This document shows, in pieces, positions 45,116 through 47,025 of a stretch of DNA of 64,000 bases. The position numbers were made by a program, and so were the translations under genes. The notes beneath the pieces were generated by a model, which worked only from the letters and a program-made list of their open reading frames with translations, did no database searches and was not told the DNA's origin. Positions within the stretch are counted from its first letter, which is position 1. Each line of letters starts with the position of its first letter. Source of the DNA: Oscillospiraceae bacterium. Its GTDB lineage: Bacteria > Bacillota > Clostridia > Oscillospirales > Oscillospiraceae. The stretch spans positions 992,001 to 1,056,000 of the forward strand of contig AP025583.1 in NCBI GenBank assembly GCA_022846095.1, written 5' to 3'.

Positions 45116-45913
45116 TTACCGCTGCTCCACGCCGTCAATGAAGAGCTCCACCGTCTGCGCCACGTAGGCCTCCTCGTCCACGTCGGCGGGCACGCCGTTG
45201 ATGATCTTGTAGAGCACCACGAAGGAGGTGAGGCTCCCCAGCAGGGAGCAGACCGCCAGATCCATGTCCAGCCCGGCCCGGACGGTGCCCAGCTCCTGCT
45301 GGTGGCGCAGAAAGCCGGTGAGCAGCCGCCGCACCGTGCAGAAGCTCTTCTCGTAGTACACGGCGCCGAAGGCGGGGAACTGGTTGGAGTCCCGGATGAC
45401 CGCGCCGAAAAAGGCGTTGCGGTGCTCGTCGTGGCTCAGCTCCATGTAGGCGCGGGCGACGCGGCGCACCTCCCGCTTCCAGTGGTTGCCGTCCAGGCGT
45501 TCCGCCGGACAGGGGGTCTCGCCGGCGTAGAGCTGGAGCACCTGGAAGAACAGATCCTCCTTGCTGGTGCAGTACTGGTAGAGCGCGGCCTTGGAGAAGC
45601 CCGCGCTCTCGGCGATCTCGTCCATGGTGGTGCCCTCGAACCCCCGCTCCCCGAAGAGGATAAGGGCGGCGCGGAGGATCTCCTCCCGGCGCTTCTCGTG
45701 CTCGGGGCGCAGGGCGGCGGCCTGGGGGATGTCCAGGGAGGAGAAGAGCTCCCGCTTGCCGCTGAAGTACAGGTAGATGGTGGAGGGGGAGATGTCCGCC
45801 CGCTGGGCGATGTCCCCGATCTTGGTCTCCGCATACCCCTTTTCCAAAAACACCTGGCGCCCCGCGTCCTGGATCCTGGCCTTCAGCTCGGCTTTGCGCG
45901 CTTCGTTGGTCAT
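45116..45913 (-). CDS. TetR-family regulator with two tandem TetR DNA-binding domains
   Basis: The 265-residue protein has two complete TetR helix-turn-helix domains. The first is at residues 8-60 (RQVFLEKGYAETKIGDIAQR, then ADISPSTIYLYFSGKRELF). The second is at about 77-125 (ILFGERGFEGTTMDEIAESA, then GFSKAALYQYCTSKEDLF). A ligand-binding region of about 140 residues follows, with a typical TetR_C ending. Most TetR proteins have only one. ATG 45913 follows GGAGGAA. No exporter or enzyme gene is adjacent on the same strand; the hairpin field at 46005 begins 92 bases upstream of its start. Target unknown. Confidence 0.85.
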   Translation of the reverse strand: MTNEARKAELKARIQDAGRQVFLEKGYAETKIGDIAQRADISPSTIYLYFSGKRELFSSLDIPQAAALRPEHEKRREEILRAALILFGERGFEGTTMDEIAESAGFSKAALYQYCTSKEDLFFQVLQLYAGETPCPAERLDGNHWKREVRRVARAYMELSHDEHRNAFFGAVIRDSNQFPAFGAVYYEKSFCTVRRLLTGFLRHQQELGTVRAGLDMDLAVCSLLGSLTSFVVLYKIINGVPADVDEEAYVAQTVELFIDGVEQR

Positions 45914-46004
45914 GTTCCACATTCCTCCCGACACGCCGGTTACTCATGATTATTATTAAATCATGCTTAGACGTGCTTGTCAACCGCCGGGAACGTGGTA
46001 AAAT

Positions 46005-46260
46005 AATGTCTGCTGAATAAACCGCCTTGCGGTTTATTCGCGCGGCGAGGCCGCGCAATCTTTTAAAAACGGTCGCATTTAGCCGTTTTCAAAAGATTCA
46101 GACATTGCTGCAATGCGTATTTCCCTTGGAGCGGCAAGCCGCTCCAAGGGAATGTGCAATGTTTTTTGGGCGTTTACGCCAAAAAACTTGCACTTGGACA
46201 AAGCCAATGAGTGTTGAAAGCCTTGGCTTTCAACACTTGCGGTTTTGTTCAGTACGCATT
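46005..46260. repeat. Field of nested perfect hairpins (two cloverleaf-like units)
   Basis: Unit 1 (46005-46106) is closed by AATGTCTG/CAGACATT and holds three hairpins: 11 bp at 46015-46039, 7 bp at 46040-46056 and 15 bp (one mismatch) at 46057-46098. Unit 2 (46112-46260) is closed by AATGCGTA/TACGCATT and holds a 15-bp hairpin (46121-46152), one of about 16 bp with bulges (46154-46193) and a 13-bp hairpin (46210-46237). Sequences near both outer ends (GAATAAACCGC and GCGGTTTTGTTC) are also roughly complementary. No coding frame fits. Confidence 0.85.
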
Positions 46261-46296
46261 AAAATAGGGTGAACAGACAAAAAGGAGGGAAGCGGC

Positions 46297-47025
46297 ATGG
46301 ACGAAAAACGGCGGCAGCTCCAGGCATGGATTGACGAGAGTGAGAACATCGTGTTTTTCGGCGGGGCGGGCGTGTCCACCGAGAGCGGCATCCCCGACTT
46401 CCGCAGCGTGGACGGGCTGTACAACATGCGCTACGCCTACCCGCCCGAGACCATCATCAGCCACACCTTTTTCACCCAGCGCCCGGAGGAGTTCTACCGC
46501 TTCTACCGGGACAAGATGCTCTGGCCGGACGCCGCGCCCAACCCGGCCCACCGCAAGCTGGCGGAGCTGGAGCGGGCGGGGAAGCTCAAGGCGGTGGTGA
46601 CCCAGAACATTGACGGGCTGCACCAGGCGGCGGGGAGTAGGAACGTGTACGAGCTCCACGGCTCGGTGCACCGCAACTACTGCATGAAGTGCGGCAAATT
46701 TCACGACCTGGACTTCGTCGTGCACGGGGAGGGGGTGCCCCGCTGCGCCTGCGGCGGAGTGGTCAAGCCCGACGTGGTGCTCTACGAGGAGCCGCTGGAC
46801 TCCGCCGTGCTGAACGGGGCATTGCGGGCCATCGAGGGGGCCGACATGCTGATCATCGGCGGCACCTCCCTGGCGGTCTACCCGGCGGCCAGCCTGATCC
46901 ACTACTACCGGGGGGAGCGGCTGGTGCTGATCAACAAGAGCCCCACCCCCTACGACCACGACGCGGACCTCATTCTGGCCGGGCCCATCGGGGAGATACT
47001 GGGCGGGGTCACGGTTGGCAATTGA
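46297..47025 (+). CDS. NAD-dependent protein deacylase, sirtuin family
   Basis: The 242-residue protein is a full-length SIR2. It has [15 protein letters not shown] (NAD binding), [12 protein letters not shown], the catalytic His in [11 protein letters not shown], a zinc ribbon with four cysteines (CMKCGK and CACGG), and the late [12 protein letters not shown] and NKSPTPYD motifs. It removes acetyl groups from lysines using NAD. CobB-type sirtuins often reactivate acetyl-CoA synthetases. The ATG follows AAAGGAGGG. The gene stands alone behind the hairpin field; an AT repeat tract follows. Confidence 0.95.

Follow-up and report, generated by a model that had tools for sequence, protein, structure and literature searches.

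The stretch at positions 46005-46260 is very probably a non-autonomous, MITE-like transposable element made of two fused cloverleaf units, and not a regulator of the sirtuin gene that follows it. It belongs to a repeat family that is new as far as we searched, and which is MITE-like, free of proteins and unusual in its target. We refer to the whole 64,000 nt of DNA that were analysed as the window; coordinates are window positions unless a copy elsewhere in the genome is named.

Results

Fold and limits of the element

The initial annotation described six hairpins in two closed groups of three, an arrangement that is borne out by the computed fold. The minimum free energy of 46005-46260 is -141.6 kcal/mol, compared to -74.6 +/- 4.8 kcal/mol for shuffled sequences (z -13.9, reached by 0/200 shuffles). 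When the fold is computed with DNA parameters, z is -13.7. Based on the fold, an alignment with 7 other full copies and covariance models, the whole element covers 254 bp (46006-46259, plus strand). The limits proposed initially were correct within one base per side, the first and last base being part of 7-bp repeats.

Unit 1 (46006-46105, plus strand) comprises hairpins at 46015-46039, 46040-46056 and 46057-46098, which are enclosed by a closing stem (46005-46012/46099-46106). Unit 2 (46113-46259, plus strand), which is defined by fold, alignment and covariance model, has the respective hairpins at 46121-46152, 46154-46193 and 46195-46251 and the closing stem 46112-46120/46252-46260. Between the units, the alignment of copies places a 7-bp spacer, TGCTGCA (46106-46112, plus strand), which is as long as the target duplicate; most aligned copies show the centre CAT-TGTTACA-ATG. 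Elsewhere, unit 1 is also mobile on its own, i.e., it is found alone between TATAATA flanks at three loci, one of them in the same genome.

The element ends, ATGTCTGCTGAATAAACC and ATGCGTACTGAACAAAACC, form an imperfect terminal inverted repeat (ATGTCTGCTGAATAAACC and ATGCGTACTGAACAAARCC), and the element is short and non-coding, both as in MITEs. With regard to coding potential, the earlier statement that there is no coding frame was nearly right: nothing supports any frame and indels between copies break the frames, but an 81-codon chance frame without support exists at 46027-46272.

The sirtuin locus

The element is directly flanked by two identical copies of TAAAATA (45999-46005 and 46260-46266, both plus strand). 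By the rule observed in 52 insertions, the left one corresponds to the -10 box of the original sirtuin-gene promoter. Its -35 hexamer TTGTCA (45977-45982, plus strand) is located 16 bp before the -10 box, such that TTGTCA-16-TAAAAT scores 10/12 in a consensus scan, with a TG ahead of the -10 box. These 7-bp direct repeats, the promoter they copy and the spacer at 46106-46112 are additions to the initial annotation. The promoter hit by the element belongs to a Sir2 family deacetylase gene (46297-47025, plus strand, from the list of open reading frames; PF02146, E 1.9e-49), whose start codon is found 30 bp past the right duplicate. The divergent neighbour, a TetR-type regulator gene (45116-45934, minus strand; PF00440, E 4.6e-34), lies outside the element. 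Since the promoter is directly upstream, the element 46006-46259 is probably transcribed within the leader, as a by-product.

Copies in the same genome and in other genomes

The initial annotation had proposed to check whether the structure occurs elsewhere in the genome or only before sirtuin genes. Copies are indeed found elsewhere, and none of the other long ones precedes a sirtuin gene. A DNA search of the whole genome identified a second full copy (619463-619715; 75% identity) with TACGATA on both flanks, which precedes a P-type ATPase gene. The unit 1 model found a single-unit copy with TATAATA flanks before glmS (1958913-1959019), and a search for the end patterns an internally deleted copy (2895067-2895112). 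Lone left ends (ATGTCTGCTGAATCAA) are present at 225378, 781468, 1662517 and probably 2572765; in three cases, such an end has a -10 box on one side and a ribosome site on the other.

For the search across genomes, two covariance models were built from eight copies, one per unit. The unit 1 model matches 58/400 genomes of the family as well as a few genomes from other families of the order; named hosts are Flavonifractor, Pseudoflavonifractor, Intestinimonas, Oscillibacter and one record labelled Butyricicoccus. The unit 2 model gives up to 42 hits in one genome (G075), some of which are the same copy found on both strands. In another genome (G659), we counted 78 element ends compared to 0 for a reversed control pattern. 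Multiple dispersed copies, together with the empty sites given below, are thus present as in a MITE family.

Some loci show further repeats. In one case, another copy contributes its right end as the upstream flank, which places TTGCGG 17 bp before TATAAT; another insertion has a second left end beyond its right duplicate, and at a third locus two copies are 3 kb apart. One element in genome G329 is preceded by a repeat that is not related to it (CAGGATTCCTGCGAAAAAATTGC..., about 84 bp); this repeat occurs at more than 25 places in G329 and at a few in sister genomes. G075 harbours a second non-coding multi-copy repeat family, seen at seven loci as recurring chance frames that are 80-95% alike.

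Target duplication and empty sites

We collected 52 non-redundant insertions, where sampling started from the best model hits. The flanking 7-mers are nearly always TANNNTA, mostly TATAATA. At the 32 sites that do not show plain TATAATA on both sides, the two 7-mers are identical in 19 cases, while randomly dealing the right-hand 7-mers gives on average 1.9 identical pairs and at most 8 (10,000 trials). Considering all insertions, the duplicates differ between the sides in 13/52. In G075 and G659, the duplicate comprises 6 or 7 bp, following TANNTA or TANNNTA (e.g., TATGTA, TATTTTA, TAAGTTA). The insertions thus carry the target-site duplication known from MITEs, and matching duplicates of 6-7 bp are the mark of staggered cutting.

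Empty sites come from a murT-like locus and the purA locus, the source genome being the sole member of its genus in the set. The murT-like locus carries the element in one genome (G293) and is empty in four sister genomes, which keep the -35 hexamer (TTGACT), the spacer and one TATAATA. At the purA locus, the element is found in G329, and three sisters show a single TATAAT. The proposal of a fold-back or mobile DNA element in the initial annotation is hence substantiated by the dispersal of many copies over unrelated sites, by target duplications that match, by the empty sites and by the covariation at the DNA level reported below.

Promoters as insertion targets

Upstream of the left duplicate, the 52 independent insertions show a TTG peak at -23 (14/52; 24/52 when allowing for a spacing of 16-18 bp), near which the -35 hexamer of the sirtuin promoter is also located. 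In addition, T-5, T-3 and G-2 are enriched there, as in extended -10 promoters. On the mirrored side, a -35 motif is found in 7/52 insertions. A gene start with ribosome site is present on the same strand within 300 bp downstream in 40/52. Judged by these motifs, the target in most lineages is the putative -10 box of a sigma-A promoter. This target is not absolute, because many insertions in G075 and G659 are outside of promoters; several G075 copies follow terminator hairpins. Given the non-promoter insertions in G075, the enzyme's own preference is probably for TA-rich DNA, with promoters as the main landing place in most lineages.

When promoters are scored in both directions, the forward orientation leads by at least 2 points in 31 insertions and the reverse in 9. 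Unit 1 thus mostly faces the promoter, while about a fifth to a quarter of the promoter insertions appear reversed. An early impression of a fixed orientation was dropped after this scoring. Similarly, a -35 hexamer rebuilt by the right end (TTGCGG or TTGTGG at 17 bp) is not a general feature, as it is present in 16/52 insertions only.

The genes downstream of copies are secA, glmS (in two genomes), ddl, mutY, a P-type ATPase gene, a murT-like gene and a MATE gene, where secA, both glmS and ddl were assigned by family match; purA, behind the copy in G329, was assigned from the start of the protein. Of these, secA, glmS, ddl and purA are essential genes. These genes are unrelated, i.e., there is no association with a single gene or pathway as expected for a structured cis-regulatory RNA. 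In the case of glmS, the genome studied here carries a single-unit copy and the second genome a double copy. In each of them, TTGCG precedes the -10 box by 18 bp, and the two stem either from one insertion that is old or from repeated use of the target.

Since the left duplicate puts a -10 box at its old distance to the -35 hexamer, the promoter should stay active and transcribe through the element. In agreement with an active promoter, there are lone left ends that still join promoter to gene after loss of the remaining element.

Covariation of the stems

Among the eight copies, changes on both sides of a pair are found in 10/42 pairs of unit 1 and 15/68 pairs of unit 2, and in both cases 0/500 shuffles are as high. 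We also counted one-sided changes in a larger set, which resulted in 42 G.T and 36 A.C for unit 1 and 72 G.T and 52 A.C for unit 2. As a control, RNase P RNA from 30 of the same genomes was treated in the same way (one row was left untrimmed). The G.T:A.C ratio is 78:61 in the element and 80:16 in RNase P RNA (Fisher P 1e-5; P 0.016 with a stricter pair filter). For tRNAs, we obtain 32:0, a value to be read with the tRNA finder in mind, which may forbid A.C.

That is, G.U is not favoured over A.C as expected for a structured cis-regulatory RNA. The near-symmetric G.T and A.C counts therefore argue for a fold that is kept at the DNA level and not as leader RNA, although part of this symmetry is expected from the neutral decay of dead copies. 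The substitution pattern thus indicates that resident copies are not maintained at the RNA level; the symmetry alone is no proof of cruciforms. The recently active copies in G659 share 56% identity with the window copy and keep the six-hairpin plan, which implies that the plan is kept through mobility.

Search for a mobilizing partner

In 1.7 Mb of DNA, we found no longer element that shares these ends and has equal duplicates; the search gave only chance matches and one pair from two neighbouring copies. Likewise, the paired ends in eight genomes enclose neither a transposase nor an extended version of the element, and the multi-copy genes of G075, a genome rich in copies, showed other DNA repeats but no transposase over 760 kb. 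Plasmid and phage records show no match to the element, and neither end is matched in viral contigs. The literature searched, mostly open papers, gave no description of such a repeat.

Discussion

In the explanation that we favour, a transposase would act in trans and cut the -10 region with a 6-7 bp stagger. The copied -10 box would leave the old promoter whole on the left side, which would explain why insertions before essential genes are tolerated. Transcription would then start at the element's left end and read through into the gene. The hairpins would persist not for any host use of the RNA but because mobility depends on folded DNA, either as a cruciform or as a single strand, to which a transposase binds or from which the element is replicated. 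A bolder reading, to which we give a low probability, is that the element recognises promoters while they open. Its transposase, which RNA polymerase or the melted -10 region might guide, would insert the cloverleaf into the -10 box with a preference for one orientation, and the substrate would be folded DNA and not a duplex end. If true, the duplicated -10 box keeps the promoter alive and lets the element spread through the promoters of essential genes.

Alternatively, the element could be mobile with an RNA that stabilises or attenuates the mRNA, such that copies are selected by the host. The orientation bias (unit 1 towards the promoter, 24 to 7), the terminator-like stems inside the element, the persistence of truncated left ends between promoter and ribosome site and the presence of the element before glmS in two genomes are in line with this, but the stems of resident copies take A.C almost as often as G.T, and truncated and deleted copies are common. 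We thus consider such a host function unlikely. A similarly low probability is assigned to the perfect hairpins being repaired rather than selected, i.e., to template switching during replication that corrects imperfect palindromes. This predicts paired changes with little G.T excess, as seen; however, active copies of another family, which are 56% identical, still show the six hairpins with their sizes and order, a persistence that correction alone leaves unexplained, and one-sided changes accumulate in old copies.

It is quite doubtful that a tyrosine or serine recombinase moves the element as a cassette. CGCAT-TATAATA-ATGTC at the junction does look like a pair of inverted arms with a 7-bp crossover between them, CAT-TGTTACA-ATG in the centre is built alike, and the 7-bp spacing recurs at both ends and in the centre. 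Nevertheless, the 7-mer differs between sites yet matches on both flanks of a site. Staggered cleavage by a DDE enzyme accounts for this better than does strand exchange at a fixed crossover, and the length of the duplicate varies between 6 and 7. Finally, the other proposal of the initial annotation, control of the sirtuin gene by a structured RNA leader of the riboswitch-like or protein-binding kind, is highly improbable. The element does have a good promoter on one side and the gene on the other, and its extremely stable fold and its covariation would suit such a leader. However, it precedes unrelated genes and follows terminators elsewhere, shows strand-symmetric stem changes without G.U excess, is flanked by target duplicates, is absent from sister species at other loci, and no Rfam family reaches its gathering score in the region.

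The MITE-like element can be related to several known systems. TnGBS and ISLre2 elements, which are of the DDE type, choose sigma-A promoters and insert upstream of the -35 hexamer. Sigma-A promoters likewise direct the insertions studied here, but the present element is found in the -10 box and not upstream of -35, and no related ends or protein were found. IS200/IS605 and REP elements are moved by Y1 (HUH) transposases and use folded DNA hairpins as mobile signal; to our knowledge, they do not produce target duplications. Folded hairpin DNA is thus shared with our element, whose clear duplicates do not fit an HUH mechanism.

Bacterial MITEs (Correia/NEMIS, ERIC, RUP, QMITE) are short and gene-free with inverted terminal repeats and target duplication; they occur in many intergenic copies with strongly folding transcripts, and some carry or adjoin promoters (PMC10969869, PMC2229807). 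Our element is likewise short and gene-free and shows inverted ends, duplications and many copies between genes. It differs in its two tandem covarying cloverleafs, where MITEs have one long stem, and in that the -10 box itself is copied; a partner IS is known for none of its copies in the DNA searched. The CIR repeats of Caulobacter consist of two long simple arms joined by a linker and have a GANTC methylation motif (PMC2229807). Two long arms on a linker are a common trait, while neither three-hairpin units nor a promoter target are reported for CIR (PMC2229807). YPAL/RU-2 of Yersinia has internal inverted repeats, target duplications of 3-26 bp and ends without TA (PMC2229807). Its targets are near dyad symmetry, as for some G075 copies after terminators; it differs from the present element in these duplicate lengths, its TA-less ends and a host of a different phylum.

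Together, the copies represent a repeat family that is widespread in gut Oscillospiraceae and neighbouring families and that, as far as we found, had no earlier description. In most lineages, they mark putative sigma-A promoters exactly and could thus serve as natural promoter footprints where RNA data are scarce. The copied -10 box would offer a parasite a simple route to occupy a promoter while leaving the gene alive. With cloverleafs that covary as DNA, it becomes a testable question which transposase reads folded DNA and picks the -10 box.
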